A DNA stretch of 64,000 nucleotides from Anabaena lutea FACHB-196. Lineage in GTDB: Bacteria > Cyanobacteriota > Cyanobacteriia > Cyanobacteriales > Nostocaceae. The stretch lies in assembly GCF_014698305.1 (NCBI RefSeq), contig NZ_JACJST010000007.1, positions 62,001-126,000 on the forward strand, in the 5' to 3' direction. Numbering within the stretch: position 1 is the stretch's first letter; each line of letters begins with the position of its first letter. Of this stretch, positions 9,774 through 29,645 are shown piece by piece. The position numbers and the translations under genes were made by a program. The notes beneath the pieces were generated by a model. It searched no databases. It was given only the letters and a program-made list of their open reading frames with translations, and was not told the origin of the DNA.

Positions 9774-11102
9774 ATGACAAATTCAACATCTGATTTATGG
9801 GCAAAAATTCGCCAACAATTTGATAGTTTACCATATCCTAATTATCCCCTTGATAAATCTCCCAAAAATGATATTAATGCACTTTATCTTCATAACTTAA
9901 TAACCCCCTATTATTTGAGAAATCAAAAAGTTATAGACACCAAAGATAGATTAATTTTAGATGCTGGATGTGGTTCTGGTTTTAAATCATTAGTTTTAGC
10001 AGAAGCAAATCCTGGAGCAAAAATTGTCGGTGTTGATATATCAGAAGAGTCAGTTAAACTTGCACGACAGCGTTTGGAATATCATGGTTTTGATAATGCT
10101 GAATTTCATGTTCTGTCAATATATGATTTACCCAAGCTAAATTATCAATTTGATTATATTAACTGTGATGAAGTTCTCTATCTTTTCCCTGATATAGCTG
10201 TGGCGTTGCAAGCAATGAAAGCTGTATTAAAGCCAGATGGTATTATTCGTAGCAACCTACATAGTTCACTTCAGAGAGTAAATATTTTTCGCGCTCAGAA
10301 AGTCTTTACTCTAATGGGTTTGATGGATGGAAATCCAGAAGATTTAGAAATAGAAATCGTCACTGATACCATGAAGGCTTTAAAGGATAATATCAATCTC
10401 AAAGCTACAACTTGGACTGCTGGCTATGAAGGGGAAGAAAAAAAACAGACTATTCTCATGAACTACTTATTCCAAGGGGATAAGGGTTACACCATTAATG
10501 ATATTTTCTCAGCTTTGAGGGTTGCTGATTTAGAGTTTATCAAGATGACGAACTGGCGACAATGGGACTTGATGAACCTATTCAAAGAACCAGATAATTT
10601 ACCTGCTTTTCTAGGAATGAGCTTACCGGAAATATCTATAGAAGATAGTTTACATTTATTTGAACTTCTCCATCCTATTCATAGATTACTAGATTTTTGG
10701 TGTGGTAATCCTCAAACTGCACATACTGTTGTACCGTTTTCCGAATGGACTGATTCTAGCTGGGAAAATGTAATAGTACATCTGCATCCACAGTTAAAAA
10801 CCTCTACCTTCAAAACAACCGTTCTTGCTTGTATAAGTCAGGGCAAAACCTTTCCTATCCGTAAATATCTGGCTTTAACAGAGGAATTTGTCTATATAGA
10901 TAGCTCAATAGCTATTTGCTTGCTACCTCTGTTTGACAAACCTTTACCCATGATGTCCCTAGTGGAGCATTGGCAACAGTTTAGACCTCTTGATCCTCTG
11001 ACAGCAGAACCTACAGATAAAGTTAAGGTTTTTCAGCTATTACAAACGCTGCTACAGGTTCTAGAGGATTTTGATTGCATTATGTTGGAGCGTCAATCTT
11101 GA
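9774..11102 (+). CDS. Class I SAM-dependent methyltransferase
   Basis: The N-terminal ~200 residues form a Rossmann methyltransferase domain with motif I DAGCGSGF (63-70), the acidic end of strand 2 in VGVDIS, and a motif IV-like NCDEVLYLF. The remaining ~240 residues resemble the C-terminal region often found in cyanobacterial methyltransferases of unknown substrate; no catalytic motif is apparent there. The substrate is unknown. It stands alone between two repeat-rich gaps. ATG at 9774 follows a purine-rich AAGAGGC stretch. No HIP1 site was seen by eye from here to about 21.7 kb. Confidence 0.8.
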   Translation: MTNSTSDLWAKIRQQFDSLPYPNYPLDKSPKNDINALYLHNLITPYYLRNQKVIDTKDRLILDAGCGSGFKSLVLAEANPGAKIVGVDISEESVKLARQRLEYHGFDNAEFHVLSIYDLPKLNYQFDYINCDEVLYLFPDIAVALQAMKAVLKPDGIIRSNLHSSLQRVNIFRAQKVFTLMGLMDGNPEDLEIEIVTDTMKALKDNINLKATTWTAGYEGEEKKQTILMNYLFQGDKGYTINDIFSALRVADLEFIKMTNWRQWDLMNLFKEPDNLPAFLGMSLPEISIEDSLHLFELLHPIHRLLDFWCGNPQTAHTVVPFSEWTDSSWENVIVHLHPQLKTSTFKTTVLACISQGKTFPIRKYLALTEEFVYIDSSIAICLLPLFDKPLPMMSLVEHWQQFRPLDPLTAEPTDKVKVFQLLQTLLQVLEDFDCIMLERQS

Positions 11103-11145: not shown

Positions 11146-11422
11146 GTAGGTTGGGTTAAGCAAAAGCTCATTGATGTCAACTTAAGCTCAAACCGTTGTC
11201 CCACAGCCGTTTGACCCCTCCCCTTAATCCCCTCCCCGTTTACGGGGAGGGGAGACAAAGCATAGCTTTGGCGGGGTGCGGTTCTTGGGGATTGATTGGT
11301 AATCGAATAAGTTTGATATAACGTCATGACAAGCCTTTCACCTTAAGTTGACACCTATGAGCGACAGCGCAACCCAACAAATACTTATAAATGTTGGGTT
11401 TCCTAAGGTCAACCCAACCTAC
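11146..11422. repeat. Nested palindromic (MITE-like) element
   Basis: Outer arms GTAGGTTGGGTT (11146-11157) and AACCCAACCTAC (11411-11422) are inverted; inner arms TGTCAACTTAAG (11175-11186) and CTTAAGTTGACA (11343-11354) are inverted as well. The centre holds a CCTCCCCGTTTACGGGGAGG hairpin, itself a dispersed repeat. The layout suggests one palindromic element interrupted by another. It occupies most of the 610-bp gap before the pilin gene. Confidence 0.6.
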
Positions 11423-11712
11423 TTAATTCTATTTTTTTAGCTTAACCGATAATATTGCGTAGTGAGTGATTTAAAGTGCAAACGGGTGTGTATCCTTTAC
11501 TAAAGCGTTAGTTATAGGTAACGTATTACAGAGAAGTATCCTGGAGATTTTTCACCAAATACTAAATAGCTGTAAGCCTTAAAAAATAAGCTTTTCAGTC
11601 TATTTATTCCATCTGGTAAAAAAAGTTTTTCAGTGGAGTGATATGAAACTGAACAAGAGTGGGTAAGTTATTTGTACAAGGAAACGATACTTCACCAGCA
11701 AGGAAAACTACT

Positions 11713-12282
11713 ATGAAAACTGAACTGAAAGCCAAATTTATCCAACACCTCCTCGGTAAAAAGAAAGAGAACGAAGGTTTCACCCTGATTGAATTGTTAG
11801 TTGTAATTATCATTATTGGTATTCTCTCAGCTATTGCTCTACCTTCCTTCTTGAACCAAGCGAACAAAGCTAGAGAATCTGAAGGTAAACAATACGCTGG
11901 TTCTATGAACCGAGGTCAACAGACATACTATTTGGAAAACCAAAGGTTTGCCAGCCAAATCACTCTCATGGGTTTAGGTATTGCTACTAAAACTACTAAC
12001 TATACTTACAAACTTGAGAAATCTGCTGGTGGTGCTTTAGATGCTGCTGGTGCTTTGGTTGCCGTACTTAACGTTGCTGATCCTGTCAACCCCACTAATC
12101 TTAGATCCTTTATCGGAGCTACTGACCTAATTCAATCTGGTGGTGCGACAACAACAACTGCAATTTTATGCCAGAAGAAAGACGCAGGTGCTTATGCTGC
12201 CAATGGTGTAAACGTTGCTACTGCTGTTGATACAACAGCACCAACATGCAACGGTACCAACGGCTTCAAAGCAATTGAATAA
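11713..12282 (+). CDS. Type IV pilin-like protein with long leader
   Basis: ATG at 11713, preceded by AAGGA, gives a 189-residue prepilin; an upstream in-frame start lacks a ribosome site. A basic leader ending KKKENEG is followed by FTLIELLVVIIIIGILSAIA, the classic class III signal cut by prepilin peptidase after Gly, with Phe+1 and Glu+5. The hydrophobic helix is followed by a globular domain rich in Ala, Thr and Gly and a C-terminal Cys pair (about 30 residues apart) that could form the D-region disulfide. It may be a major pilin (PilA) or a minor one. A strong terminator follows, and the next gene is a SPINDLY-like glycosyltransferase. Confidence 0.88.
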   Translation: MKTELKAKFIQHLLGKKKENEGFTLIELLVVIIIIGILSAIALPSFLNQANKARESEGKQYAGSMNRGQQTYYLENQRFASQITLMGLGIATKTTNYTYKLEKSAGGALDAAGALVAVLNVADPVNPTNLRSFIGATDLIQSGGATTTTAILCQKKDAGAYAANGVNVATAVDTTAPTCNGTNGFKAIE

Positions 12283-12356
12283 GATAGTTTATAAGATGGC
12301 TTTGACAACTATCAAGTTTCTAAGCATATGATACAGATAGCTTCATGTAGTTAATG

Positions 12357-12392
12357 AAAAGGTAGGTAATTATATTACCTACTTTTTATTTT
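12357..12392 (+). terminator. Rho-independent terminator after the pilin gene
   Basis: GTAGGTAAT and ATTACCTAC form a 9-bp stem with a 3-nt loop, preceded by AAAAG and followed by a long T-rich tract (CTTTTTATTTTTTTAT). This is a convincing intrinsic terminator for a highly expressed single-gene unit. Confidence 0.85.
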
Positions 12393-12413
12393 TTTATTGT
12401 CGTTTTCACAATT

Positions 12414-14627
12414 ATGAATAATCTCCAATCTCTAGCACAACAAGCGTTTAAAAGTTTCCAGCAAGGTGAGTATTTCCCAGCCGAAGAACTTTATCAAGAA
12501 TTGACTAATCATCAACCAGAAGTTAAAGAATATCACTGGTATTTAGGATTATCTTTACTTTTACAAGGAAAAGAAGCAGAAGCACAAACTACTTGGATGT
12601 TAGCAATTTTTGAAGGGGAAGAAGAACAAATTCAACAGTGGACTTATGAATTAGTTAAAATCTTACAAACAGAAGCACAAAGACAAGAAGAATTAACACA
12701 ATATCAACTTGCTTGGGTTATTCGTCAACATATTCGAGAAATTTATCCTGGTGATGTTAATAATATTTTACAGCTAATCAATTTATCTTTAGATTTAGAA
12801 AATCTGACTCAAGATAGCTTTCAGGAATTAGAAATTATTGAAATTTTAAATTCTCAGCTAGAAGAAATAGATAGAGAACTGTTATTTTCTGTCCTCAAAA
12901 AAACTCTAAAATTATTATGGTTTGAACCTTGGATATTAGATTTTCCTGAAGCCTGTATTTTCTATTTAGATCCCTTACAACTTACTCACTGTGTCATGTT
13001 AACAGCTACGGAAGCTGCTTACGCAGGACACAAGTTTAACTTAGCAATTAAATATGCTGAATTAGCTTTAAAAATAAATTATCCAGATCCAGCAGTTATT
13101 TCTGAAGTCCTTAGTCACTTAGCGACTTTTTATTATGAAATTGGCGATTTTGATCAAGGAATTAATCTTGCTAAAAGAATACATGATTTAGCCCATAATA
13201 CCCCTGATTTAATCACTGCTAATGTAGTGATATTACAGGGGTTATTAAGTTCCGGTGGACGCTGGTATGAAGCTATCCCAGTTATTCAAGAATATGAAAT
13301 TTGTTTAAATAAGCTAATTACAGAAAAAGCAGACATAGATAGTACTAAAATTTATCGCTTACTCAATTGTACGTACTATCTACCCTATTTGCGTGATGCT
13401 GCTAGAAAAAATCGCTTTTTACATAATGAAGTTCTCAAAATCTGCCAAACCAGTATTCAAGCCTATGCTCAAGAACAATATAAGCGGTACTCTCACGCTA
13501 ATGCTCAGAGAATAAAAGCACCGAAGAAAAAACTAAAGATAGGTTATCTTTCCCATTGTTTGCGAGAACATTCAGTAGGTTGGTTAGCACGGTGGTTATA
13601 TCAACATCATAATAGAGAAGAGTTTGAAATTTATACTTATTTTGCTACTTACCATTCTCATATTCATGATTTTCTCCAAGATTGGTATGAGGAAAATTCA
13701 GATCATGTCAGAAAATTAGACCGAGATGGAATCGAAATTGCTGAACAAATTCATCAAGATCAAATTGATATTTTAATTGATCTTGATAGTATGACTGCGG
13801 ATATTAGCTGTGAAGCAATGGCACTAAAACCTGCCCCGATTCAAGTAACATGGTTAGGTTGGGATGGTTCTGGAATCCCTGCTATTGATTATTATATTGC
13901 TGATAATTATGTTTTACCAGAATATGCCCAAGAATATTACAGTGAAAAAATTTGGCGTTTACCAAATGCCTATCTGGGGGTTGATGGTTTTGAAATTGGT
14001 GTACCAACTCTACGACGAGAGGATTTAGAAATTGCCAATGATGCAGTAATTTATTTTAGCGCTCAATCTGGTTATAAACGCAATCCTGAAAATGTGCGTT
14101 TACAGATGAAAATCCTCAAACAAGTACCAAATAGTTATTTTTTAATCAAGGATATTAATAAAGATGTAGGTGTGATTAGAGAGTTTTTTGAACAAATTGC
14201 TGAATCAGAAGGAGTTAGTAAAGAGAGATTACGCTTTTTAGAAAAAGTACCTTTATCCTCAATTCATCGTGCCAATTTAATGATTGCTGATGTGGTGTTA
14301 GATACCTATCCCTATAATGGTGCAACTACAACAATGGAAACTTTATGGGTGGGTGTACCTTTGGTAACGAAAGTGGGAGAGCAATTTTCAGCCCGCAATA
14401 GTTATACAATGATGGTGAATGCGGGTATCAGTGAAGGTATTGCTTGGAGTGATGAAGAGTATATAGAGTGGGGTGTGCGTTTAGGTAAAGATGCAGATTT
14501 GAGAAAACAAATTCACTGGAAATTATTAAAGTCACGTCAAACTGCACCGCTTTGGAATGGTAAACAGTTTACTCGTGAAATGGAAAATGCTTATCAGCAA
14601 ATGTGGTTAAAGTACATTGATAAGTAG
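12414..14627 (+). CDS. TPR/SPINDLY-like O-GlcNAc-type glycosyltransferase (GT41)
   Basis: The N-terminal ~340 residues contain TPR-like helices (for example QQAFKSFQQGEYFPAEELYQ). From about residue 365 the GT41 C-terminal module appears: KIGYLSHCLREHSVGWL, QVTWLGWDGSGIPAIDYYIA, and the UDP-sugar-binding region VVLDTYPYNGATTTMETLWV followed by GVPLVT. This family transfers GlcNAc or another sugar to Ser/Thr of proteins. The gene starts 131 bp after the pilin stop, behind its terminator, so pilin or another surface protein is a reasonable but unproven substrate. ATG at 12414 fits the family. Confidence 0.85.
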   Translation: MNNLQSLAQQAFKSFQQGEYFPAEELYQELTNHQPEVKEYHWYLGLSLLLQGKEAEAQTTWMLAIFEGEEEQIQQWTYELVKILQTEAQRQEELTQYQLAWVIRQHIREIYPGDVNNILQLINLSLDLENLTQDSFQELEIIEILNSQLEEIDRELLFSVLKKTLKLLWFEPWILDFPEACIFYLDPLQLTHCVMLTATEAAYAGHKFNLAIKYAELALKINYPDPAVISEVLSHLATFYYEIGDFDQGINLAKRIHDLAHNTPDLITANVVILQGLLSSGGRWYEAIPVIQEYEICLNKLITEKADIDSTKIYRLLNCTYYLPYLRDAARKNRFLHNEVLKICQTSIQAYAQEQYKRYSHANAQRIKAPKKKLKIGYLSHCLREHSVGWLARWLYQHHNREEFEIYTYFATYHSHIHDFLQDWYEENSDHVRKLDRDGIEIAEQIHQDQIDILIDLDSMTADISCEAMALKPAPIQVTWLGWDGSGIPAIDYYIADNYVLPEYAQEYYSEKIWRLPNAYLGVDGFEIGVPTLRREDLEIANDAVIYFSAQSGYKRNPENVRLQMKILKQVPNSYFLIKDINKDVGVIREFFEQIAESEGVSKERLRFLEKVPLSSIHRANLMIADVVLDTYPYNGATTTMETLWVGVPLVTKVGEQFSARNSYTMMVNAGISEGIAWSDEEYIEWGVRLGKDADLRKQIHWKLLKSRQTAPLWNGKQFTREMENAYQQMWLKYIDK

Positions 14628-14975
14628 GTGAACAGAAAAAACCGTAGACGCGAAGCGGCTTCTCGAAGAGTAATATGTAACGAAAAGTAAAGTTGCCCAA
14701 AACCTCTTCTCTGTTCCCTGTTCCCTTGTCATAACGACAATTTTTAACGCCAACCGGACTTGAAAATAAAACCCCACCCCTAACCCCTCCCCGCTGTTTC
14801 GTGGAGAGGAATAAGAAGTTTTTCATGTGTCCTGGTGTACGCAGTTCATGATGGCTACTTAGTTGAAATCCTGAAATTATGTTAATCTTTAACCAAAGGG
14901 CTTAGTTTACGGTTGTAGGCATCACTCTATGAGATCCTGACAAATGACCCATTCTAACCGAAAAGGATTTTGATT
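14628..14975. other. Intergenic region with repeat fragments
   Basis: This ~350-bp gap holds a CGCGAAGCGGCTTCTCG palindrome-type repeat (about 14650) and an ACCCCTAACCCCTCCCCG…GTGGAGAGG hairpin similar to the one at 11216-11255. No conserved small gene is seen. The minus-strand frame through it is repeat text. Confidence 0.5.
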
Positions 14976-15443
14976 ATGATAAATATCACACAAAACCAAC
15001 TACAACAACTGTATGAAATTGATGATTATCTCTGGTTAGAAGAAACCATTAAACTTCTAAAAACCAAAAAATTAGAAAATTTAGATTTAGATAATTTAAT
15101 TGAGGAATTAGAAAGTTTGGGAAGAAATGATTTAAACAAAGTTAGAAGTCTTTTAAGACAGATTATCATTCATCTTCTTTTGCTACAATATTGGCATCAA
15201 GAATATGATCGAAATTGTTCCCATTGGGAGGGAGAAATAATTGCTTTTAGATATGATTTAAATAATAGCTTAACCACGACATTAAAAAATAAGCTATTTC
15301 AAGAGTTAGAACATATTTATAATGTTGCTGTTAAAATTGTCAGTACAAAAACAGGATTATCATCAAACCTATTTCCTGATAATTGCCCTTATTCCTTGGA
15401 ACAATTATTAGATGATAATTGGTATCCTGAGAAACATTCATGA
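14976..15443 (+). CDS. DUF29 family protein
   Basis: A 155-residue DUF29 protein, shown by YEIDDYLWLEETIKLLKTKK, LDLDNLIEELESLGR, and the helix RQIIIHLLLLQYW. DUF29 proteins are abundant in cyanobacteria and of unknown function. ATG at 14976 is preferred over the in-frame TTG at 14970 because AAAAGG lies just upstream. Its stop is 11 bp before a second, divergent DUF29 gene, suggesting an operon of two paralogues. The C-terminal motif NCPYSLEQLLDDNWYPE is also shared with the family. Confidence 0.85.
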   Translation: MINITQNQLQQLYEIDDYLWLEETIKLLKTKKLENLDLDNLIEELESLGRNDLNKVRSLLRQIIIHLLLLQYWHQEYDRNCSHWEGEIIAFRYDLNNSLTTTLKNKLFQELEHIYNVAVKIVSTKTGLSSNLFPDNCPYSLEQLLDDNWYPEKHS

Positions 15444-15454
15444 GGTAAAAATAA

Positions 15455-15880
15455 ATGACCAGTCTTTACGATAAAGATTATGCTTATTGGGCTGAAGAGA
15501 TGGCTGCAAAACTACAACAAAGACAGTTCCATGAATTAGATATTGAAAACTTAGTGGAGGAAATTAAAGATTGGTCAAAACGAGAAAGAGATAAACTCCT
15601 TAGTAGTCTGCGTTTAATCATTCATCATCTACTTAAGTGGGATTATCAACCAGAAAAACGTTCCCGAAGTTGGCAAATAACCATTAAAAGAGAGAGAAAT
15701 AATATTGCTTTCTATTTAGAAGATAGTCCTAGTTTGCAAAAATATCTTGCTGATGATTGGCTCAAAAAACTTTATCTAAATGCGAGTTTAGATGCTACCA
15801 AAGAAACTGATTTAGATTTTCCCTTAAACTGTCCTTATGACATCACAGAAGTTTTAAACCGTGATATTAAACTAGAGTGA
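15455..15880 (+). CDS. DUF29 family protein
   Basis: A 141-residue DUF29 protein beginning MTSLYDKDYAYWAEEMAAKL, with LDIENLVEEIKDWSKRERDK and LRLIIHHLLKWDY. It ends with the family's NCPYDITEVLNRD motif. It follows the previous DUF29 gene after 11 bp and is probably translated from the same mRNA. The function is unknown; the pair could act as a heteromer, but nothing in the sequence proves it. Confidence 0.85.
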   Translation: MTSLYDKDYAYWAEEMAAKLQQRQFHELDIENLVEEIKDWSKRERDKLLSSLRLIIHHLLKWDYQPEKRSRSWQITIKRERNNIAFYLEDSPSLQKYLADDWLKKLYLNASLDATKETDLDFPLNCPYDITEVLNRDIKLE

Positions 15881-16074: not shown

Positions 16075-18600
16075 TTAACTAGAAATAGAAAGTTGATCAA
16101 TCAGGCTATGTAATTCATAGGATTTGAGATTTTCAACTGGTACTTCTGCTAAAGCTTGTTCATCTTCATTAGGTAAGATAATTTTGGCATCAATACGAGG
16201 TAATAAAACTTCCCATTGAATAGCAGCCAAATTTCCTACTGGAACAATTTCTAAACCTTCACTAATGTCTAAATCTTCTTCCATTAGTAAATTCATAGTA
16301 ACACTGGATAAAAACATTGCTGCTTCTTCCGCATCGATACTACTAATACTAATCAGTAGGGTAGTATTAGAACTCTGAGGATAATTAGCTAATTCTTTGA
16401 TGATTTCTGTCAACTCTAAACCTAGTTCATCTTCTGGTTGTGACCAGTCAGGGAATATAATTAAATTAGTTTCTTTGAGATTTAAAGACAATAAAGTGGC
16501 ATTAAATAATGCAGAACTCACAGTTTGTGCCATTTTTGTCCAAGAGAACTTTTTAGCCTGTGCTAAACCAGCGGGAATTAATGACTGACGAACAGTAGGT
16601 TTCTGCACTTCACAGAGAGCATTTGTCAGTCCTTCTACATCATTATCATTGACATAAATAGCTGCTTCCGCTGTGACTTCTGGAATTGAAGCATTAGGAC
16701 AAGTAATTACAGGACAACCACAAGCCATTGCTTCTAATAGAGGCATTCCAAAACCTTCATATTTAGAAGGATAAACTAAGGCCACTGCACCAGAGTAAGC
16801 TAGTGCTAATTCTTCATCACTAAGTTGTAGTATATGTACAGTACTACCTGATGTGTAGGTTCTTAACTCTGGCTCAAACATCCCACCAATACCAGTACAA
16901 ATAATATCAAATCCGTACCTACTTGTTAGTTGTGAGAAAGCTTTGAAAAATAAAATACCATTTTTATAATCACCACTAGCACCAACTAATAGAAAGTATG
17001 GTTTATTAATGCCATACTTATATTTAAAAACTTTAAGCTCATCTTCAGAAGCTGGAGAAAAGAGAGAATCTACACCACAATGAGCAACGGTAATTGATTC
17101 TAAGGGTATGTCAGGGAAAATTTGAGCTAAATCTTTAGCAGTATTTTCAGAGATGGTAATATAAGCGGAGGCGTGTTTAATTCCGTTATGTTTTTCACGC
17201 CACATAGGTTCATCAAAGTTCGCTCCCAATACTTCAGGTATCATGTCATAAGCCATAAATACTGAAGGGGTATCAATGGGAGTAGTGTAGTAAGAAGAAA
17301 TAAATAATTCGGCTTCTTCTTCATCACATATTTGTTGAAGCATCTGCTTATCAGCTTCGGTATTGTTATAGTCGTAGTAGGGAATAGTGCAGTAGCGAAT
17401 ACCGGGAATTTGAGGTGCGGTGTTAACTCTATCTAATACCAAAATATGCTTGGCAAAATCAGTATTTGACCATTGTTGTAAGAGACTGCGCCACACTCTA
17501 GCTATTCCAGTTCTGTAGAGTTGGAAAAATACTCCATCAATGATTATTTGTGGTTTAGCATGGATACGAAAAATTGACTTCAGATAATTTTTAATTAAAT
17601 CTAAATCTTGGTTTTTATTAAACTTTAAATTACTGTCTAGGTCATTGGTGTATTGATAGTCTATAAACTGTAAACCATCTTTTGTAAATAAAATATTCCA
17701 AGGGCGAAGATCGGCGACATTATCTAGCTGTTCAAGTCTATCAAATTCGGTTTCAATTTTTTGAATACAAGTTTCATAACTAGGCATTAAAACTTGCCCA
17801 ATTTGAGCAACATCAGAAATAAGTATACCCGGAATTGCTTTAATATCTTGATTAAGATGAGATTTATGAATTACTAATCCTTCGGAATCGGCTTTGAGAA
17901 TATAACTACGAGGTTGTAACGGATAACCTATATAGGGAAATATAGATTGTCTTTGATAATTAGGAGATTCAGCATAATAAAATGAACGTTTTAAATCAGT
18001 ATCACAGTGAGTTGTAGCTTCATAAGGCATTTTGATAAAAACAGGTTTAACTTGACTAATTTTCTCTAAAGTTAACTGTTGTTTTAAAACATCTTTACCA
18101 CAAACTCTCGATTCATCAGGATGGGGAAGTTCCATAATAAAAGATTTGGAAACTTGATTGAGGTTGGTTAAAAAATCTTCCGCATCTTGAATATGATGTA
18201 AAACTGACAACAAAAGAGTAACGTCAAAATAAGTACAAGCTTGAGCGGCGCTACATAACCATTCTGTGCTAACTTCAGAATGAATTAAAATTATATTATT
18301 AACACCTTCTAGTTTAATTAATTCTTGTTGCAAACGTGCATAAGGATATTGTTTTTCAATACTTACGAATATGTTTTCAGGAAATAATTTAGCAAGATTA
18401 ATAGTAAAAAAACCTACATTAGAACCAATATCTAAAATAGTCTGTTTTGGTTTTATATAATTTTTGATTACTTCTAATCTTTCAAAATCGTTTGCTCTAA
18501 CTCCTTCTCTAATTAATTTTCCATGTAAATAAATAGATTGATAAACTTCAGGTAAAGCATCTATCAATTTTTCTAAATTCGTTTCTGCATTAGTGGACAT
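16075..18600 (-). CDS. Three-part fusion: methyltransferase, kinase-like segment, GT4 glycosyltransferase
   Basis: Residues ~45-190 are a class I SAM methyltransferase (ILDIGSNVGFFTINLA). Residues ~230-320 carry DLRPWNILF…LQFIDYQY, which resembles the catalytic HxDxxxxN/DF region of small-molecule kinases. Residues ~345-690 form a GT4 glycosyltransferase with the E-x7-E signature YEGFGMPLLEAMACGCPVIT. The last ~110 residues (IIFPDWSQPEDEL…) are a conserved tail I recall from other cyanobacterial glycosyltransferases. It is the last gene of the phosphonate operon, 62 bp after the cytidylyltransferase/transferase fusion. A role in building the glycan that accepts the phosphonate is inferred. 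Confidence 0.8.
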   Translation of the reverse strand: MSTNAETNLEKLIDALPEVYQSIYLHGKLIREGVRANDFERLEVIKNYIKPKQTILDIGSNVGFFTINLAKLFPENIFVSIEKQYPYARLQQELIKLEGVNNIILIHSEVSTEWLCSAAQACTYFDVTLLLSVLHHIQDAEDFLTNLNQVSKSFIMELPHPDESRVCGKDVLKQQLTLEKISQVKPVFIKMPYEATTHCDTDLKRSFYYAESPNYQRQSIFPYIGYPLQPRSYILKADSEGLVIHKSHLNQDIKAIPGILISDVAQIGQVLMPSYETCIQKIETEFDRLEQLDNVADLRPWNILFTKDGLQFIDYQYTNDLDSNLKFNKNQDLDLIKNYLKSIFRIHAKPQIIIDGVFFQLYRTGIARVWRSLLQQWSNTDFAKHILVLDRVNTAPQIPGIRYCTIPYYDYNNTEADKQMLQQICDEEEAELFISSYYTTPIDTPSVFMAYDMIPEVLGANFDEPMWREKHNGIKHASAYITISENTAKDLAQIFPDIPLESITVAHCGVDSLFSPASEDELKVFKYKYGINKPYFLLVGASGDYKNGILFFKAFSQLTSRYGFDIICTGIGGMFEPELRTYTSGSTVHILQLSDEELALAYSGAVALVYPSKYEGFGMPLLEAMACGCPVITCPNASIPEVTAEAAIYVNDNDVEGLTNALCEVQKPTVRQSLIPAGLAQAKKFSWTKMAQTVSSALFNATLLSLNLKETNLIIFPDWSQPEDELGLELTEIIKELANYPQSSNTTLLISISSIDAEEAAMFLSSVTMNLLMEEDLDISEGLEIVPVGNLAAIQWEVLLPRIDAKIILPNEDEQALAEVPVENLKSYELHSLIDQLSISS

Positions 18601-18662
18601 AATTTATTCTCCTAATTTTGATAAATTCCATCATTCGAGGATCTAAAATTGGCTATTTAATT

Positions 18663-20216
18663 TCAACCAATCAGTAATCGATGCCATTGATTCATCATTC
18701 TTTCAAAATATAAATGGCTTTTCAGTGGATGTTCTAAAGCTTGCCAAAATGAAACATATCGATCAATCAATTGGGCAATAAGTTGACCAGATGATTTAAT
18801 ATTAGGGTTAACAATTGAGTTAAGATTATGCTTGTGTTGCTGAAATTCAATAAAATCATGAAAAGACTCGTCGGAATCAAAGACTTCCTGAAGTTGTTCT
18901 AATGGCATAAATAGAATATCTTTAGAAATTAGGCTAGATTGAGGTTGCAGTTGATTTGGATCAGGATTAAAACGACCTGTTTCTATGCTGATTCCAAAGG
19001 GTAGAAATTCTATACCCACTGAAGATTGATCCGTCACCAATACATCTACAAAAGGAAATAAACTACAAATATTTAAGGTTCTAGGTGCAACAACAATATT
19101 AGGAATGTCATATGCTAAAGCTGTTTCCTCCATTTCTTTAACAGAGAGAAGACAACTCTCATACATTGCTTCTAACCCTGTTGGATAAGCTTGACCTGGA
19201 TTCACATAAATATGATTCTTAATAATCACGTTACAGCGAAGATTTTTAAATAAGGGTAAAAGTTTTTCCCATTCTCTTGTGTGTCCCCAAGTCGGTGCAT
19301 ATAAAAGTGTGTATTTATAGGGTAAGTTAGATAATTTTTGAGCTAGTTTGCTATCTTTCTCAGAAAATTCCATTTTGTCGTATTTTGGCCAGCCTCCCTG
19401 TAAAATTAATCTTGTAGGTTTTTGAAAAGGCTGTGCATAAGTTAAGCCTAATATTTTTTGAGCATGATGAAAATGAAAATCTCCCGGAACGAAGATAATA
19501 TTAAATTCTCTTAATCGGTTTTTTTCAATTTCATAAGCATCTATATCTCCTAAATCGTGATGTAAGTAAAACAAATATTTGTAACCGTCTACAGATTTTA
19601 TAATCTGTGGATGATGCTGAGTATGGTCAAGTAAAATAGCAGCTTTTGCACCTGTTGGTTGTTGATCAGGTCCAATCAACCAACGACAATCAAAGTGTTG
19701 ACTCATTGCTTCAAAAACAGACAGTCCTGCTTGTGCTTGTAAATCATGATAAGCAATGAAATCAACTCGCATTGGCTGACTGACAAAACAAAATCTAGCA
19801 GTAGATGAAACTCTTTGTAAAAGATTAGTTGTGGAAATATTTTTTGTATAAGGAACTAGCTTGAGACGACCTTGTTTGCGAATTTCTCCATACCATTTTT
19901 CTATATTTTCTGCATCTACATCATCTCCATGACAAACGTAGTCAATATTTAAGTTGTCTAAATAATCTAAATTAACATTTAAGGGAGCATTAGGAATAAC
20001 TTCATCAACATAGCGACAACTTTCAACCACAGCAATTCTTTCAGCCATACTCATAATTGGTTGGCGTTTATATCCAGCAACAGTTTCATCAGAGTGGATA
20101 CCTACCACTAATTCATTCCCTAAAGATTTCGCTTGTTTGAGAAAGTTGACATGACCTGCATGGAACAAATCAGCTACCATATCAACATAAATTCGGATTG
20201 ATTTTGTATTATTCAT
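18663..20216 (-). CDS. Cytidylyltransferase (Pcyt2-like) fused to CDP-glycerol-phosphotransferase-like domain
   Basis: Residues 1-~135 are a cytidylyltransferase: the HxGH-type motif is HAGH in MVADLFHAGHVNFLKQA, followed by AERIAVVESCRYVDEVIPNA and CHGDD, closely patterned on ethanolamine-phosphate cytidylyltransferases, including the ISTTNLLQRV end. Residues ~165-500 resemble CDP-glycerol glycerophosphotransferases (TagB/TagF type): YTLLYAPTWGHTREW, VIIKNHIYVNPG, and VDVLVTDQSSVGIEFLPFG. A single protein that activates a phosphate or phosphonate headgroup with CTP and then transfers it is implied. Beside aminoethylphosphonate genes, the likely donor is CMP-2-aminoethylphosphonate or CDP-ethanolamine. 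ATG at 20216, 50 bp after the upstream methyltransferase gene. Confidence 0.85.
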   Translation of the reverse strand: MNNTKSIRIYVDMVADLFHAGHVNFLKQAKSLGNELVVGIHSDETVAGYKRQPIMSMAERIAVVESCRYVDEVIPNAPLNVNLDYLDNLNIDYVCHGDDVDAENIEKWYGEIRKQGRLKLVPYTKNISTTNLLQRVSSTARFCFVSQPMRVDFIAYHDLQAQAGLSVFEAMSQHFDCRWLIGPDQQPTGAKAAILLDHTQHHPQIIKSVDGYKYLFYLHHDLGDIDAYEIEKNRLREFNIIFVPGDFHFHHAQKILGLTYAQPFQKPTRLILQGGWPKYDKMEFSEKDSKLAQKLSNLPYKYTLLYAPTWGHTREWEKLLPLFKNLRCNVIIKNHIYVNPGQAYPTGLEAMYESCLLSVKEMEETALAYDIPNIVVAPRTLNICSLFPFVDVLVTDQSSVGIEFLPFGISIETGRFNPDPNQLQPQSSLISKDILFMPLEQLQEVFDSDESFHDFIEFQQHKHNLNSIVNPNIKSSGQLIAQLIDRYVSFWQALEHPLKSHLYFERMMNQWHRLLIG

Positions 20217-20266
20217 AACATAATAAACTTTTTGGTCAAAAACAATAATTTTCTAATTGTAGTAAT

Positions 20267-20818
20267 TCAATCAATTTTAATAAAGACATTAAATCGATCT
20301 GGATTATAAAAACCCTCTGTAATTTCAGCAGAATAAAAGTCTTTAGGATTAAATAAAAGATGTTCTGAACGATGAGAGCGAATTGGTAAATCTCCTATAA
20401 AAATAGATGTTTTGGAAACTCTTTTCATTTCCTGAATTGCTGTTTTAGCATATTCCAAATTTGGAAAATATTGAAATACACTATAAGCAAATGCTTTGTC
20501 AAAAGAATGATCGTTGAAAATTAAATTATTGGCTGAACCATGTATAACTGAATTTCCAAGTAATTGGATGTGTTTTTTTACTAGAGATTGAGAATAATCT
20601 ATTCCTATATAACCACAATCTAAATATTGAGCAATCATTCCAGCACCGCAACCGACTTCTATAATTTTATCTGTAGACTTAATATCTAGAATTTTAGTTA
20701 TTTGACTTGCAACAAATTTAGCATCAATTGTTGTATCTTCATATCCATCTAGTTCTTTTAAGTCATTAGTTTTTAAACGTCCTTTTCTTTCCCAAATTTC
20801 CTGCCAATCTAAAGACAT
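20267..20818 (-). CDS. Small class I SAM-dependent methyltransferase
   Basis: A 183-residue methyltransferase: motif I is IIEVGCGAGMIAQYL, followed by GYIGIDYSQSLVKKH and the motif IV-like FDKAFAYSVFQYFP. It lies 8 bp after the aminoethylphosphonate transaminase gene and before the cytidylyltransferase fusion, so it is embedded in the phosphonate operon. N-methylation of aminoethylphosphonate or O-methylation of a sugar would fit; neither can be decided from sequence. At 183 residues it is short and lacks any extra substrate-binding domain. Confidence 0.82.
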   Translation of the reverse strand: MSLDWQEIWERKGRLKTNDLKELDGYEDTTIDAKFVASQITKILDIKSTDKIIEVGCGAGMIAQYLDCGYIGIDYSQSLVKKHIQLLGNSVIHGSANNLIFNDHSFDKAFAYSVFQYFPNLEYAKTAIQEMKRVSKTSIFIGDLPIRSHRSEHLLFNPKDFYSAEITEGFYNPDRFNVFIKID

Positions 20819-20826
20819 AAATAAAT

Positions 20827-21933
20827 TTACCTTTTTGTTTCTTGAAAAAAAATCTCTTTAAAACACTGGATAAGATTCACAATATCATCTTCTTGAATAT
20901 TACCCATATTAGCTATTCTAAATATAGTTTTTTCTAATCCTCCTTGCCCGGCATAAATTATAAATCCTGACTGTTTTAAGTAATCATGAATTTGTTCATA
21001 ACTATAACTTAAGGATAATTTATAAGATTTTAAAACACAGGAATAATTAACAGGATTTAATAAAGTCTCAATTCCCATAGATTGTAATCCATTTTGAATC
21101 ATTTGAGAACGGTTTTGATACAAATTGTGTCTGCTTTTCCATCCTCCGTCGTCTTCCAATTCTTTTAAAGCTTCTCGTAAAGCATAGCTAACTTGAACAG
21201 ATTGAGTAAAAGGAGAATAACCTTCTAGTTGTTGTTTGTGATAGCTATAAAGATCAAGATATAGACTAGAAGCGGCCGTTGAACGAAACTCAAATACAGA
21301 TTTTTTAACTAGTACAAATGACAATCCTGGTACGCCATGTAAACATTTATTAGCAGTTGCAGCACAAGCTTCTAAATTCCAATCAGAGAATTTTATGGTT
21401 TCTGCTCCAAAACTAGAGACACAATCTAGTAATAAAGCAATATTTAGACTGCGGCAAATTTCTCCTAATTTGGCCACATCATTTAATCTTCCTGTTGTGG
21501 TTTCATGGTGAACAGCGACAACATGAGTAAAGCTAGAATCTTGGGTTAGATATTGCTCCACTGCTTGCAAATTCATCGGTTCTTCCCACGGGGAGGTGAC
21601 TACCGTTAAGTTTTTGTCATGGATTTTAACCATTTTTGCCATTCGCTCACCATAAACCCCATTGGTAACAATCAAAGCTTTTCCCGATTTTGGGATCAGG
21701 CTTGATAGCATAGCTTCTACCGCACAAGTACCTGAACCTGTCAGCACAATGGCTTCATAGTTGGCGATCGCTTCTGGATAAACACTAACTAAACGAGTTT
21801 TGATGTCTAACATCAATTGAGCAAATTCTGGTTCTCGATGGCACAAGTCTTCTTTGAGTAAAGATTCGCGCACTCTGTCACTGAGAGTAACAGGCCCAGG
21901 ATTAAGTAAAATGTTGCGTTGGTTTATTTTCAT
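20827..21933 (-). CDS. phnW: 2-aminoethylphosphonate:pyruvate aminotransferase (biosynthetic)
   Basis: A class V PLP aminotransferase of 368 residues that would interconvert phosphonoacetaldehyde and 2-aminoethylphosphonate. The N-terminus ILLNPGPVTLSDRVRESLL and the early segment VLTGSGTCAVEAMLSSLIPK are family-typical; the PLP lysine is in TANKCLHGVPGLSFVLVKK, and LLLDCVSSFGAE precedes it. The start overlaps the decarboxylase stop by 4 bp (ATGA), so the two are translationally coupled. The context (PEP mutase, decarboxylase) indicates biosynthesis rather than degradation. The alternative name is AepT. Confidence 0.92.
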   Translation of the reverse strand: MKINQRNILLNPGPVTLSDRVRESLLKEDLCHREPEFAQLMLDIKTRLVSVYPEAIANYEAIVLTGSGTCAVEAMLSSLIPKSGKALIVTNGVYGERMAKMVKIHDKNLTVVTSPWEEPMNLQAVEQYLTQDSSFTHVVAVHHETTTGRLNDVAKLGEICRSLNIALLLDCVSSFGAETIKFSDWNLEACAATANKCLHGVPGLSFVLVKKSVFEFRSTAASSLYLDLYSYHKQQLEGYSPFTQSVQVSYALREALKELEDDGGWKSRHNLYQNRSQMIQNGLQSMGIETLLNPVNYSCVLKSYKLSLSYSYEQIHDYLKQSGFIIYAGQGGLEKTIFRIANMGNIQEDDIVNLIQCFKEIFFQETKR

Positions 21934-23072
21934 TGTGTTTGCAAAAACTGTCGTAACCGTTGAGCAACTTCTGGTGGTGTAATTTGTGGTCGAGGTATTT
22001 TTTCGGGGATACCGGATTTGATTTTAATGTGTAAAAAAGTTAGTTCTTCTGAAGATGATTTTAAATAATTTTCTAGTTCATCTGGAGTATTTATACAAGC
22101 AACTTTCTCATAACCACAAGCCGAGGCGATCGCACTAAAATCAATGGAATGAGAAACAGTAGCTTGACCTCCAGTAGATTCATGGCATTGATTATCTAAC
22201 AAAATATGCATAAGATTTGCTGGACGTTCATAACCAATAGTAGCCAATGCTCCTAAACGCATTATTGCTGCTCCATCTCCATCCAAAACAATCACACGCT
22301 GTTGGGGTTTACTAATGGCTATTCCCAATCCCAAACTAGAAACACAACCCATTGAACCGACCATATAAAATTGATTCTGGTTATCTTCAATAGCATATAG
22401 TTCTCGACCACAATAGCCTGTTGTTGCTAATAAAATATCATTATTTTGAATAGTAGTTTGAATTGTTTTCAGCATTTCATGCCGACTAAAACTAGATTCA
22501 GGTTTTAAATTTGCTGAAGTTGCTGTTAATAAATAAGACTTAACTTGGAGATTAGAATTCAGAGAACAAGATTCTACTGAACCTTTTTTCATTACTAAAG
22601 CATAAGGTGTTTTATCATTTCTCATTATTTGAACTGCACGCTCTAGAGTAGGCTGAATTTCATCAACCTCTGTGGGAAAATATTCCCAAGGGATTTGCAT
22701 CAATTCTAGTAATTGTGGGGTAATTTGTCCCATAAGCTGGTGTTGTGGTTCATCCTTTGCACCATCTGGTTGACCACGCCAAGTGACAATAATCAAAATA
22801 GGAATTTTAAAAATTTGATTGAGAGATGTTAAGGGGTTAACCGCATTGCCTAAGCCAGAATTTTGAAACATGACAATACTAGGAACTCCGGCTAATTCTG
22901 CACCAGATGCGATCGCTACTGCATCTCCTTCATTTGCAGCACCCACATAGCGTAAAGAAGGGGAATCAATCACATAGTTAATGAAAGAAGTCAGATAGGA
23001 ACAAGGAACGCCAGTATATAACCCAAATCCTAAACTCTGTGTAGCTTGAATAAAACTCTTAGCAGGTATCAT
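21930..23072 (-). CDS. ppd: Phosphonopyruvate decarboxylase
   Basis: A ThDP-dependent enzyme of 380 residues that pulls the PEP mutase equilibrium forward by decarboxylating phosphonopyruvate to phosphonoacetaldehyde. The N-terminal Pyr domain has the conserved YTGVPCSYLTSFINYV and AANEGDAVAIASGAELAG; the Glu activates ThDP. The C-terminal PP domain contains VLDGDGAAIMRLGALATIG…LLDNQCHESTGGQ, with the GDG…N Mg/ThDP motif. It overlaps the upstream stop by 1 bp (TAATG) and the next start by 4 bp. Two HIP1 sites lie within it. The alternative, sulfopyruvate decarboxylase, is disfavoured by the neighbours. Confidence 0.93.
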   Translation of the reverse strand: MIPAKSFIQATQSLGFGLYTGVPCSYLTSFINYVIDSPSLRYVGAANEGDAVAIASGAELAGVPSIVMFQNSGLGNAVNPLTSLNQIFKIPILIIVTWRGQPDGAKDEPQHQLMGQITPQLLELMQIPWEYFPTEVDEIQPTLERAVQIMRNDKTPYALVMKKGSVESCSLNSNLQVKSYLLTATSANLKPESSFSRHEMLKTIQTTIQNNDILLATTGYCGRELYAIEDNQNQFYMVGSMGCVSSLGLGIAISKPQQRVIVLDGDGAAIMRLGALATIGYERPANLMHILLDNQCHESTGGQATVSHSIDFSAIASACGYEKVACINTPDELENYLKSSSEELTFLHIKIKSGIPEKIPRPQITPPEVAQRLRQFLQTQ

Positions 23073-24691
23073 TAAAAACCTCCTGCTCTAATTATGTCTT
23101 GAATTTCATCTACATCTAACCAATTTCCTGTAATATAAATCACCTGGACAGCATAGCCGAGATTTATTAATTCATTGATTAATGTTGGCATTCTTCCTTG
23201 TTGCTGCACATCATCTTCAACTAATAAACCTTTGAGAGTATGGCGAAAAACATCTTGTAAATTACTTGAAACTTTTAATAATCCAGTCCATATTCCACAA
23301 ATTTGCGGTAGTAAAAGTTGATTGTCAATTTTTTGTAAATAGACATCTGTGTAGAACGCTTTTTGGGAATTCGGTAATGAGCAATTGACATAATCTGGTC
23401 TGACAGAATTTAAACTAGCCTTTGCATCAGCATCAACAACAATCGCAAAATCTTGTTCAGTATCTAGTAAAAGTTGCAATATATATTTTTTGAATAGCAC
23501 ATCCCCATAACCGATGATCAAATCTTGTTTTTCCAAAGATATTCCTTGTAGTCCTAAATAGAGAGACATAAGTTCTCCCGTACAATCATAATTGTCATTA
23601 TCAACGTAATTCAGATTCGGCAAATTGATAGCTTCTTTTTTATATCCTCGAACTACAGTAATATCTTTTATGCCTATTGTGCGGTAATGATTAACAACTT
23701 GAGACAATAAAGGTTCACCCTTTAATTCCAGCATACATTTGGGCTTATCTGCGGTAAGTTCTCCAAATTCTACGCCTCTTGATGCAGCTAAGAGCAAAGC
23801 TGTAATGTCTTTTTTATTCTGGGGTAAATAACGCTTCTCAGCTTCTTGTAGTTCTAATGCTCCTTGTAATCTAAAAACTTCTGAAACTGGAATAATCTCT
23901 TCTTCAATATTTAGCAAGCTTTCTTCAGTCAAAATTGTTTTTGCCGCTTGTTGCATTGCGGTTATAGCTGCTCTGCAAATTTGATTAGCCCAGATGACAA
24001 TTGAAAATTGATAATCTCGAAAAACTTGAGTAGGAGTAGTGTAGTATTTAGTCGGAATAATAACAACCGGACAGCGATCACCCCACTCTTGCTTAAATGC
24101 TAAAATTTCATCAGAGACTCTCAAAGAACTATGAATTATAATACCATCAGCCCCAGCTTGGTGATAGGCTTCTGCTCGTTTGAGAGCTTCTGGTAAACCC
24201 CAACCAGCAATAAAAGCTTCAATTCTGGCAATTACTACAAAATCTTCATCAGACTGAGCATCTTTAGCTGCTTTAATTTTTCCACAGAATTCTCCTATAT
24301 CTGCTAAAGGTTGAGTTGCTCCATTAATAAAACTATTCGTTTTCGGAAATACTTTATCTTCTATGCAAACCCCAGCAATTCCTCTTTGTTCTAATTTCTT
24401 GACTAAACGACGAACATTATTAAAATTACCATAACCTGTATCCCCATCCAACAGAATTGGTATTGATGTAGCGTCGCACATAAATTCAAGCACTTCTAGT
24501 ACTTGTGTCCAACTTGCTTCATTATTATCTCGAACTCCCATTGCTGAGGATATAGAAAGACCACTAGCCCAAATTCCTTTAAATCCTGCTTCCTCTACAA
24601 TTTTAGCACTTAAGCCATTATGAGCTTCCATTAAAAACTCAAGATATTGTGAGTTTAGAAGTTGTCTCAATTGCTTTGTTTTTCTCACCAT
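23072..24691 (-). CDS. pepM: PEP phosphomutase fused to nucleotidyltransferase (PepM-PntC-like)
   Basis: Residues ~1-270 are phosphoenolpyruvate mutase, forming the C-P bond: LDGDTGYGN (81-89) and the diagnostic [10 protein letters not shown] (EDK-x5-NS, 111-120) are intact. Residues ~295-539 are a sugar-nucleotide-type nucleotidyltransferase: [20 protein letters not shown] with the [14 protein letters not shown] lysine, and [11 protein letters not shown] as the metal-binding segment. This matches PntC-type CTP:phosphonate cytidylyltransferases fused to PepM in the CMP-aminoethylphosphonate pathway. First gene of a six-gene operon. ATG (24691) is followed directly by a GTG codon; it lies after a ~300-bp upstream gap. 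Confidence 0.93.
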
Positions 24692-25000: not shown

Positions 25001-25414
25001 CTAGGGATCGCTCTGACTCTCCCCCTCCCTTTTCTTCATATTCCCCAAAACAACCTTATAATCCTGCCTATCAGGATGCTGTTGCACCAACTTCTCCATT
25101 AAAGCGATCGCACCCTTGGTATCTTTCATTTCTAGCCGCAGTAAAGACAGTTTTTCCAGCGCCAATTGGTTGTTTGGTTCTCGCTGCAAAACCAACTCAT
25201 ATCCCTTAGCCTTTTGTTGCAATTCACTGTCAACAGACTGAATAACAGGTTGCTGAGATTGCTGAGGCTTCTCCCAAGATTGTTTTAGAGTATTAACTGC
25301 TCCAAATAAAATTGAACCACCAAAAGACAAGATAGAAATATATGTTACGATTCTTTGCTTTCGCTCCAGCTGCTTACGACGCTTAACTAAGTAATCATCT
25401 CCAGAAATTGCCAT
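25001..25414 (-). CDS. Small membrane-anchored TPR-like protein
   Basis: A 137-residue protein with a basic N-terminus (KRRKQLERKQR), one hydrophobic segment (about 25-42, VTYISILSFGGSILFGAV) and a C-terminal TPR-like part (AKGYELVLQREPNNQLALEK and GAIALMEKLVQQHPDRQDYK). It therefore projects two TPR-like helix pairs from the membrane. It is common in cyanobacteria and its partner is unknown. ATG at 25414. It is separated from the phosphonate operon by ~310 bp in the same orientation and probably has its own promoter in the ~430-bp gap upstream. Confidence 0.7.
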   Translation of the reverse strand: MAISGDDYLVKRRKQLERKQRIVTYISILSFGGSILFGAVNTLKQSWEKPQQSQQPVIQSVDSELQQKAKGYELVLQREPNNQLALEKLSLLRLEMKDTKGAIALMEKLVQQHPDRQDYKVVLGNMKKREGESQSDP

Positions 25415-26113: not shown

Positions 26114-27355
26114 TCACTGACAAATAAGCAATGCCTGAGCCAGTTCCTTAGCAGTTTGGTAGCGATCGCGTGGCAAAGGTTCCGTAACGCGCTCGATAAC
26201 TTCTCGGAGTTGAGGAGTAATGGTAGGCACGCTTTTAACATCAAAGCCAAACGCTCGTCCCTTTTGACGGAAAAACTTCAAAGGATTTTCGCCAGTGAGC
26301 AAAAAAATCAGCGTAGGTCCGATGGCATACAAATCTGATTGTGTCAAGGGTTGTCCGCGTTCCTGCTCAGGAGCGCAGTAACCTTCTGCACCAATCCTTG
26401 TTCCTGGTGCGGTTCCAGTTTCTTTTACTGCTCCAAAATCCAACACCACCACGCGATTGTTAGAACTTCGCACCATTAAATTTGCGGGTTTAATATCACG
26501 ATGAATAAGTGGTTGCTCTTGGTTATGAAGATATTCTAAGATCTCACAGGTTTGAATCATCCAAGCGATCGCTTGATTTGGTGTCACCGGACCATTAGTA
26601 TATATACGTTTTTCTAAATCTTGTCCATGAATTAATTCCATCGCCAAGTATTTTTTGCCACCTTCCACAAAAAAGTCGTAATACTTAGGAATTCCCGGAT
26701 AGTTAAGATGTTTAAGAGTGTTAGCTTCCCGTGTAAATAACTCTTGGGCTTTAGCAATTTTAGCCATATCAGCATTCATCTGCTTTAAAACTAACAATTG
26801 CGGTACACCTGTACTCAAACCAATAGCATCCCAAGCTAAATAAGTAGTACCCATACCTCCTTGTCCTAGAGTACGTAACACCTGGTAGTGACGAATTATC
26901 TGTTGTACAGAAAGAGGTTCACCGCAGTGAACGCAAAACAGATTATTTGGGGAATTTCCTTCGTGGGTGCATCGAGAACTATTGAAAGCAGCAGTGACAT
27001 TCTGATTTTGATACCCAGGTAAAGCATCCGGTTCGGGAATTTCCTGAAGTTGGAATTTGAGGATAGGCCCCCCCTGCGCCAATTGCAACAGAGAATTATT
27101 GGGCAGTGTACATTTGTTGACAAGAGTACCATTGAGGAAAGTCCCATTTGTCCCTTGACTAATTACCTGCCAAGCATCACCCTTCTTCCCAGCACTCACT
27201 TGCTTCAGTTCCAGATGATATCGAGAAACTAGACTATCATTTAAAACAACGTGATTATCCACCGCCCGACCAATACGAATCACGGTGGAATTCTCAAAGC
27301 ACCACTGCTGAAGCGGCGTTTTTTGTTGCCTGTCTAACAGGGTTAGAGTAACCAC
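26114..27355 (-). CDS. FHA domain / zinc-ribbon / Hanks-type Ser/Thr protein kinase
   Basis: Residues ~20-95 are an FHA phosphopeptide-binding domain (IRIGRAVDNHVVLNDSLVSR). A short CxxC-type ribbon (…CTHEG…FCVHCGEPL) follows. Residues ~155-413 are a protein kinase: glycine loop LGQGGMGTTYLAWD, catalytic Lys in LLVLKQM, catalytic loop HRDIKPAN, DFG motif in VVLDFGAVKE. It starts with GTG at 27355, 16 bp after the stop of a PP2C phosphatase gene, so kinase and phosphatase form an operon. The FHA domain before the kinase is a common cyanobacterial arrangement. Substrates unknown. Confidence 0.93.
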   Translation of the reverse strand: MVTLTLLDRQQKTPLQQWCFENSTVIRIGRAVDNHVVLNDSLVSRYHLELKQVSAGKKGDAWQVISQGTNGTFLNGTLVNKCTLPNNSLLQLAQGGPILKFQLQEIPEPDALPGYQNQNVTAAFNSSRCTHEGNSPNNLFCVHCGEPLSVQQIIRHYQVLRTLGQGGMGTTYLAWDAIGLSTGVPQLLVLKQMNADMAKIAKAQELFTREANTLKHLNYPGIPKYYDFFVEGGKKYLAMELIHGQDLEKRIYTNGPVTPNQAIAWMIQTCEILEYLHNQEQPLIHRDIKPANLMVRSSNNRVVVLDFGAVKETGTAPGTRIGAEGYCAPEQERGQPLTQSDLYAIGPTLIFLLTGENPLKFFRQKGRAFGFDVKSVPTITPQLREVIERVTEPLPRDRYQTAKELAQALLICQ

Positions 27356-27371
27356 ATTGACACTCCCCGGT

Positions 27372-29288: not shown

Positions 29289-29645
29289 AGTGGAAGTTCC
29301 TCGATTTTCCTTCTAAGGTGCTTCTAGCCACTAGATCCAAAGTGCCACAATTAGCTGACCCTGACTACAGTATATGTATAAGAGATTGTGGATTCACCAG
29401 GGAATATTGGTGGCAGGATATAATTGTAAACTACCTACAATGACAGCAAGGAGCTAAGGTGTAGGCTTTTAGTAGCCCTGAACTATCTGTATTGAGACTA
29501 CGACACAAACAATTCGTTCCGCTAGGCTGGTTTACTTTAGCAGCCACAATAATAGCAATCCATCTTTTTGCCCTGTTTAAATCAGCATCTCCACTCCGTC
29601 TTCCTGCGCTAAATGAATCTTACGTTAGATGATACAAACAGACAG
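29289..29645. other. Intergenic region, possible tiny membrane ORF
   Basis: This ~360-bp gap lies between two minus-strand genes. On the plus strand a frame from a TTG near 29492 encodes ~46 residues with one hydrophobic segment (WFTLAATIIAIHLFALF). There is no good start or family match, so it is not called. No terminator or promoter is evident. Confidence 0.3.

Follow-up and report, generated by a model that had tools for sequence, protein, structure and literature searches.

The route from phosphoenolpyruvate to 2-aminoethylphosphonate (AEP) through PepM, Ppd, and a transaminase is an established pathway, and PepM also starts antibiotic pathways. In the Pnt clusters with PntC of Atopobium rimae and Treponema denticola, a PepM-Ppd-transaminase set is described together with activation by cytidine triphosphate (CTP) and surface-glycan machinery, and some Pnt clusters possess two nucleotidyltransferases, one fused to PepM and one standing alone; the same account calls the tailoring that follows AEP formation enigmatic (PMC6697681). 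A different type of locus is known from many cyanobacteria, in which ogt lies next to pilA and Ogt is involved in PilA glycosylation; at the Nostoc punctiforme OgtA locus, a GT41/Ogt-type gene stands beside a type IV pilin gene, and the description of this ogt-pilA locus mentions no phosphonate (review, PMC12288463). Here, we analyze a 64,000-nucleotide stretch of the Anabaena lutea FACHB-196 contig NZ_JACJST010000007.1 (positions 62,001 to 126,000; "the window," to which coordinates refer), taken from a 6.06-Mb assembly of 62 contigs, in which features of both types of locus are found. An AEP operon at positions 16075 to 24691 lies beside a GT41 gene and a type IV pilin gene. With a probability of roughly 0.6, we propose that, within a cyanobacterial pilin glycosylation island, the operon forms an exchangeable cassette for phosphonyl tailoring of the pilin O-glycan.

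The AEP operon and its pilin neighborhood

The operon comprises six minus-strand open reading frames with overlaps of 1 and 4 bp and gaps of 8, 50, and 62 bp, as described in an earlier, sequence-only reading of this DNA. The gene at 23072..24691 encodes PepM (residues 1 to 280) fused to an altered PF12804 nucleotidyltransferase-like domain (residues ∼295 to 539); the protein matches PF12804 and TIGR02320 (388 bits; NCBI curated cut-off, 320) and carries the EDKx5NS motif at residue 111. The next two genes encode the phosphonopyruvate decarboxylase Ppd (21930..23072; TIGR03297, 449 bits; cut-off, 313) and an AEP transaminase of the PhnW/AepZ type (20827..21933; TIGR03301, 386 bits; cut-off, 361). 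With the PepM motif intact and all three enzymes above the curated cut-offs, the AEP biosynthetic cluster named in that reading is present. The remaining genes encode a 183-residue methyltransferase (20267..20818; PF08241, 2.7e-13), a 517-residue fusion of a Pcyt2-like cytidylyltransferase (residues 1 to 140) and a Glyphos_transf-type transferase (residues 142 to 517) (18663..20216; PF01467 and PF04464), and an 841-residue fusion (16075..18600) of a WbdD-like methyltransferase and possible kinase remnant (residues 1 to 345), a GT4 domain (residues 350 to 700), and a C-terminal module (residues 700 to 841).

Relatives were sought among 388 genomes of the order. The six-gene order recurs in a genome from another family (G157) with 67 to 81% identity per protein, and the arrangement is therefore not due to chance; the search for the same gene order, proposed earlier as a check, also yielded a variant (G640) in which the Pcyt2-like domain and the transferase are separate genes. 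The Glyphos transferase is present in four of the 388 genomes (the window genome, G157, G640, and the Tychonema genome G203) and is fused to the Pcyt2-like domain in two, the window genome and G157, so the full set of fusions is as rare as had been supposed. The PepM-nucleotidyltransferase fusion by itself is common: PepM exceeds the cut-off in 19 genomes, and 18 of the 19 proteins are fusions of the PepM-PF12804 type by length and motif (the exception is in G642). In a published census, 59.5% of PepM proteins are fused to another domain, 33% to PF12804 and 24% to PF01467 (PMC6697681).

The operon is part of a conserved island that takes in genes at 9774 to 14627, absent from the sequence-only reading. 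In the window, a 442-residue methyltransferase-domain protein (9774..11102, plus strand; PF13847, 5.3e-29), a type IV pilin (11659..12282, plus strand), and a GT41 glycosyltransferase of the Ogt/SPINDLY type (12414..14627, plus strand; PF13844, 2e-52) are followed by the operon, which occupies the opposite strand as far as a 137-residue protein with weak tetratricopeptide repeat (TPR) matches that forms the outer island edge (25001..25414, minus strand). The pilin, the presumed acceptor, matches PF16734 (9.3e-22) and the N-methylation motif PF07963, has a likely start at 11713, and is the sole close copy in the genome, in which three other matches are weak. A GT41 gene adjoining a type IV pilin gene is the arrangement that defines the cyanobacterial ogt-pilA locus.

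The GT4 module of the 841-residue protein is matched (E ≤ 1e-60) in 194/388 genomes. Stretches of up to 20 kb around the module were sampled in 37 of these 194 genomes, comprising 17 loci hand-picked among the matches listed and 20 that were the next listed after the first 30, with one already picked being skipped. All 37 are from the upper part of the matches listed, and the weaker partial matches lie outside the sample, as do the window genome, G157, and Tychonema; G640 is included. Both the pilin and GT41 were found in 33/37 loci (16/17 of the picked loci and 17/20 of the next), with GT41 on the strand opposite to GT4 in 33/33, while the 442-residue protein was found in 21 and the TPR protein in 32 of the 37. 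G157 and Tychonema also display the island plan, with only a remnant of the 442-residue gene in G157. A phosphonate-specific role for the GT4 half was not borne out, since this half marks a widespread island with pilin and GT41; the earlier view of the GT4 fusion as the builder of a phosphonate-specific acceptor was set aside because the module is island-wide.

Two further features of the island were observed. Very large multidomain glycosyltransferases of 1745 to 2634 residues carry the GT4 module at four loci (L089, L115, L123, and L128). Between GT41 and the operon, the window holds two tandem DUF29 genes (14970 to 15880), and a near-identical pair (90% and 96%) lies at the equivalent place in G663 (L083).

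Exchange of the cassette and the likely acceptor

In G306 and G646, two genomes from the genus of the window, the pilin, GT41, 442-residue, and TPR genes are retained, with 74 to 92% identity for the first three, and there is no PepM match. In the operon's place, they carry a 1272- or 1266-residue GT4 protein, whose front is FkbM-type in G306, and a GT41 paralog. Residues 350 to 841 of the 841-residue protein are 84% and 80% identical to their counterparts in G306 and G646, 69% in G640, and 64% in both G157 and Tychonema. Residues 1 to 345 are 81% identical in G640, 72% in G157, and 59% in Tychonema; in G306 and G646 they have no counterpart beyond a 54- to 62-residue match of ∼30%. The N-terminal half travelled with the operon and the C-terminal half stayed with the species, which places the junction inside the gene; by these alignments, the operon is an exchangeable cassette. 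Among the matches listed, only the window genome, G157, G640, and Tychonema cover the alignment of the 841-residue protein from end to end, with all others starting at column 276 or later, and these are the same four genomes that have the Glyphos transferase. Third-position G+C content adds little: it is 0.13 to 0.26 in the cassette versus 0.36 to 0.40 for the genes at 26114 to 30251, a contrast that is weak because GT41 (0.22) and several further window genes are equally low.

WbdD is the Escherichia coli O-antigen chain terminator. Residues 1 to 345 match it at 1.5e-6 through the methyltransferase part, after which a kinase-type motif (DxRPWN...ID) comes in line. The kinase-motif match collinear with WbdD reaches only 2.5 bits, which is not significant alone, and a kinase role is a possible one at the level of suggestion. 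Unlike WbdD, the 841-residue protein is fused to GT4, and its kinase part is shorter and without a significant match. The C-terminal module (window 16078 to 16506) has no Pfam match and is possibly a docking module of island enzymes. It also opens a GT41-like paralog in neighboring islands, e.g., at L076 6312 to 8534.

The Tychonema island shows a different content at the same place. It has homologs of the 841-residue protein (61%) and of the transferase half of the 517-residue protein (63%), the latter without the Pcyt2 domain, and the genome has no PepM match. PepM, Ppd, and the transaminase are replaced by one 615-residue fusion protein. Its nucleotidyltransferase is LicC-like and carries a near-canonical motif (GYGRR...HK), and its pyridoxal phosphate (PLP) enzyme has L-threonine-O-3-phosphate decarboxylase as the best PDB match (2.3e-27). 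Such a decarboxylase would yield phosphoethanolamine or aminopropanol phosphate, and perhaps it is phosphoethanolamine, or a compound like it, that the fusion provides to the same transferase. Phosphoethanolamine is also the likely product of the 6oux and Campylobacter enzymes. Because AEP is the C-P analog of phosphoethanolamine, one transferase family may serve two chemistries. A switchable phosphonate "serotype" of type IV pili, in which swapped cassettes would cap the pilin O-glycan with AEP or a phosphate-ester analog (e.g., phosphoethanolamine), is a more tentative proposal, to which we assign slightly less than even odds.

The likeliest acceptor is the glycan of the type IV pilin, given the gene neighborhood, the polypeptide shared with the GT4 module, and the exchange of the cassette. 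Several observations weigh against this assignment. Gene neighborhood alone does not prove an acceptor, and 3/37 sampled loci have neither pilin nor GT41 (one of these genomes, G352, has a GT41 elsewhere), while one more has the pilin with only fragments of GT41. Of the 19 genomes that carry PepM, only 3 have it within the pilin island; near PepM in the other 16, no pilin or GT41 was seen, four of those contigs being shorter than 13 kb. The PLP domain of the Tychonema fusion matches a protein labelled histidinol-phosphate aminotransferase nearly equally well (2.8e-27). In addition, turnover of phosphonate as a phosphorus source is possible because the window genome encodes the C-P lyase PhnJ, whereas nearly all marine producers are said to lack phosphonate degradation genes (PMC8931226). 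The phnJ match (500 bits) lies on contig C1 (154266-155078; L131), and this organism may degrade phosphonates as well as produce them.

The alternative that survives best is that CMP-AEP, the cytidine monophosphate (CMP) derivative, is put on exopolysaccharide, lipopolysaccharide, or lipid and that the pilin genes are mere neighbors at a recombination hot spot. Most bacterial phosphonate capacity has been assigned to cell-surface glycans and lipids (PMC6697681), and phosphonolipid clusters are reported in lichen Nostoc (PMC5987646). Within the order, the PepM clusters of G360 (L041), G429 (L156), and G661 (L148) hold a CDP-alcohol phosphatidyltransferase (CDP, cytidine diphosphate), which points to lipid; no pilin or GT41 was seen beside these three clusters, which probably make phosphonolipid. 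(The G661 cluster also carries a HalD-like oxygenase.) No such phosphatidyltransferase is found among the six operon proteins, however, and part of the cassette is joined in one polypeptide to the GT4 module, which accompanies pilin and GT41 in most sampled loci. The pilin-side genes are moreover retained where the cassette is absent. We consider a nonpilin acceptor unlikely, if still worth serious attention.

Proposed activation, transfer, and modification of AEP

The sequence-only reading had AEP activated as CMP-AEP by PntC-type domains, and two domains of the operon could be considered for this step. PntC enzymes carry the signature GXG(T/S)RX4-8PK, in which substitution of the Arg or Lys cut activity to below 10% (PMC6697681). 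The PepM-fused domain of the window departs from this signature: it reads AASRGVE where LicC reads AAGLGTR, the first Gly and the Arg being gone (the LicC reference over the full signature stretch is AAGLGTRLRPLTENTPK). GxG(T/S)R is absent from 18/18 PepM-fused domains of the order, with E (17) or Q (1) at the Arg position. The domain is probably not the CMP-AEP synthase, and this candidate was set aside on account of the altered signature. A second nucleotidyltransferase is found in 13/18 PepM-fusion loci, ten of the GxGxR-type PF12804-like kind and three of the Pcyt2 type (window, G157, and G640); none was seen in the other 5/18, three of which are on short contigs (6.8 to 12.9 kb). The Pcyt2 type, fused or separate, is present in all three PepM-bearing islands, the separate protein of G640 being 82% identical. 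The Pcyt2-like domain of the 517-residue protein, which has HxGH and STT motifs, is the likelier CMP-AEP synthase, so that activation as CMP-AEP retains a candidate enzyme, in a domain other than the one fused to PepM.

Relatives of the Pcyt2-like domain were observed elsewhere. At many loci among L004 to L036 and L042, mostly from family f31, outside the class, PepM has an N-terminal PF01467 domain that is 27 to 40% identical to it. When 72,556 plasmid records were searched with the 517-residue protein, one match was obtained, to the cytidylyltransferase part only, in a Streptomyces plasmid gene (NZ_CP134205.1, 377834 to 378228; 48.5% identity).

The 517-residue protein scores 80 bits against PF01467 and 30.4 bits against PF04464 (gathering cut-off, 22.1), and its Glyphos half is the likely AEP transferase. 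Its domains support the earlier assignment of the fusion as a phosphonate transferase; where that assignment left the glycan or lipid acceptor unspecified, the pilin glycan is the likeliest one. PF04464 could also be read as a sign of teichoic-acid chemistry, an interpretation set aside on the evidence of the Tychonema swap. A scan of genome contigs with the 517-residue protein gave no match, and one with the Glyphos alignment gave one locus, in Tychonema sp. LEGE 06208.

It could instead be supposed that the Pcyt2-Glyphos fusion has no connection with the phosphonate and forms a CDP-glycerol or CDP-ethanolamine system, and that the PepM-fused domain makes CMP-AEP for another enzyme. PF01467 resembles both TagD and Pcyt2, PF04464 is named for glycerophosphate transfer, and the PepM-fused domain keeps several conserved residues. 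The best PDB match of the Pcyt2-like domain, however, is the ethanolamine-phosphate cytidylyltransferase 3elb (1.5e-48), with TagD-type glycerol-3-phosphate cytidylyltransferase more distant (7.9e-13). The uniform loss of GxG(T/S)R from the PepM-fused domains also argues against this supposition, as does the Tychonema transferase, which lacks a Pcyt2 domain and stands beside the LicC-like/PLP-enzyme fusion. An independent system of this kind seems distinctly unlikely. Certain points nonetheless count against our assignment of the two enzymes. The PK lysine is kept in 18/18 PepM-fused domains, and an Arg lies three positions earlier in 17/18, so that these domains may retain activity. The PF04464 match is weak (30 bits), its Tychonema homolog falls under the cut-off (19.6), and the transferase-half profile finds no credible solved structure. 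Structure prediction, which the sequence-only reading had proposed as a check, was run for the 841- and 517-residue proteins, each aligned with its Tychonema homolog, and gave models too poor for use (mean predicted local distance difference test scores of 32.7 and 33.1). Finally, a soluble phosphonate (antibiotic or signal) as the product is very improbable: antibiotic pathways do begin with PepM, but the operon encodes a Glyphos-type transferase together with a glycosyltransferase, no exporter family was matched by any of the six products, and three genomes have the operon at an equivalent position in the pilin island.

The 183-residue methyltransferase is a candidate N-methyltransferase of the AEP head group. 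It shares 32% identity with the methyltransferase encoded by the Tychonema cassette. For the METHYLTRANSFERASES, the Tychonema enzyme shares 59% identity with one encoded in a G429 cluster of the phosphonolipid type, which contains PepM, Ppd, transaminase, a TauD-type oxygenase, and a CDP-alcohol phosphatidyltransferase, and the window enzyme is a distant relative (28%). Because related enzymes are common to lipid and pilin settings, the head group would be the substrate. The G640 cassette (L075 14720 to 16205) also has PhyH oxygenase and TylF-type methyltransferase genes, perhaps yielding hydroxylated or methylated AEP.

Under the proposed pilin-tailoring scheme, the three enzymes matched by curated models would make AEP from phosphoenolpyruvate, and the Pcyt2-like domain would couple it with CTP to give CMP-AEP. 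GT41 would add the first sugar to the pilin and the GT4 part of the 841-residue protein would extend the glycan, as island conservation and the published work on Ogt and PilA suggest. The Glyphos half would then transfer AEP from CMP-AEP to the pilin glycan as a phosphonate ester, and the 183-residue enzyme, on weaker grounds, probably methylates the AEP amino group. The conserved but altered PepM-fused domain would have another catalytic role or none. The decoration would be switched by recombination inside the GT4 gene and before the TPR gene, in the manner of capsule types. Domains, gene order, and relatives lend support to the part of the earlier interpretation in which AEP is made, activated with CMP, and moved to a surface glycan.

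Comparison with known phosphonate and pilin systems

If the switchable-serotype proposal is true, the locus would give a bacterial pilus a phosphonate modification with dedicated genes, perhaps directed against phages, grazers, or phosphatases. Pilin acceptor, transferase, and activating domain are proposed together, which makes the question of AEP transfer directly testable, and natural controls are available in close relatives that have the island without the cassette and in one genome whose phosphonate route seems to have given way to a different one ahead of the same transferase. The proposal also bears on the origin of high-molecular-weight phosphonates in water and on how cyanobacteria vary the pili met by phages and grazers.

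The described systems each share part of this arrangement. The locus differs from the LicC-type PntC clusters in lying within a pilin island and in probably relying for activation on a Pcyt2-type (HxGH) domain, to which a Glyphos-type transferase is fused. The Clostridioides difficile flagellin type A glycan (cd0240-cd0244) shares an appendage O-linked N-acetylglucosamine, a phospho-linked amino compound, and a methyltransferase; it differs in that flagellin rather than pilin is modified and the usual donor group is N-methylthreonine phosphate, although AEP has been seen on this sugar of the flagellin, in an organism reported to lack PepM (PMC8861647). PepM pathways are likewise described in lichen Nostoc (PMC5987646) and in Prochlorococcus SB and SAR11 (PMC8931226), in accounts that describe no pilin locus for these phosphonate clusters. 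The lichen Nostoc clusters differ in having a CDP-alcohol phosphatidyltransferase and are read as lipid-directed (PMC5987646); SAR11 differs in having an oligosaccharyltransferase-like gene near pepM, and phosphonylated glycoproteins have been postulated for Prochlorococcus (PMC8931226). Among the open-licence papers listed in literature searches, no title or opening of an abstract located a PepM cluster within a pilin locus. The pathway is known and the island is known; their combination would be new, together with a possible natural phosphate-to-phosphonate swap.

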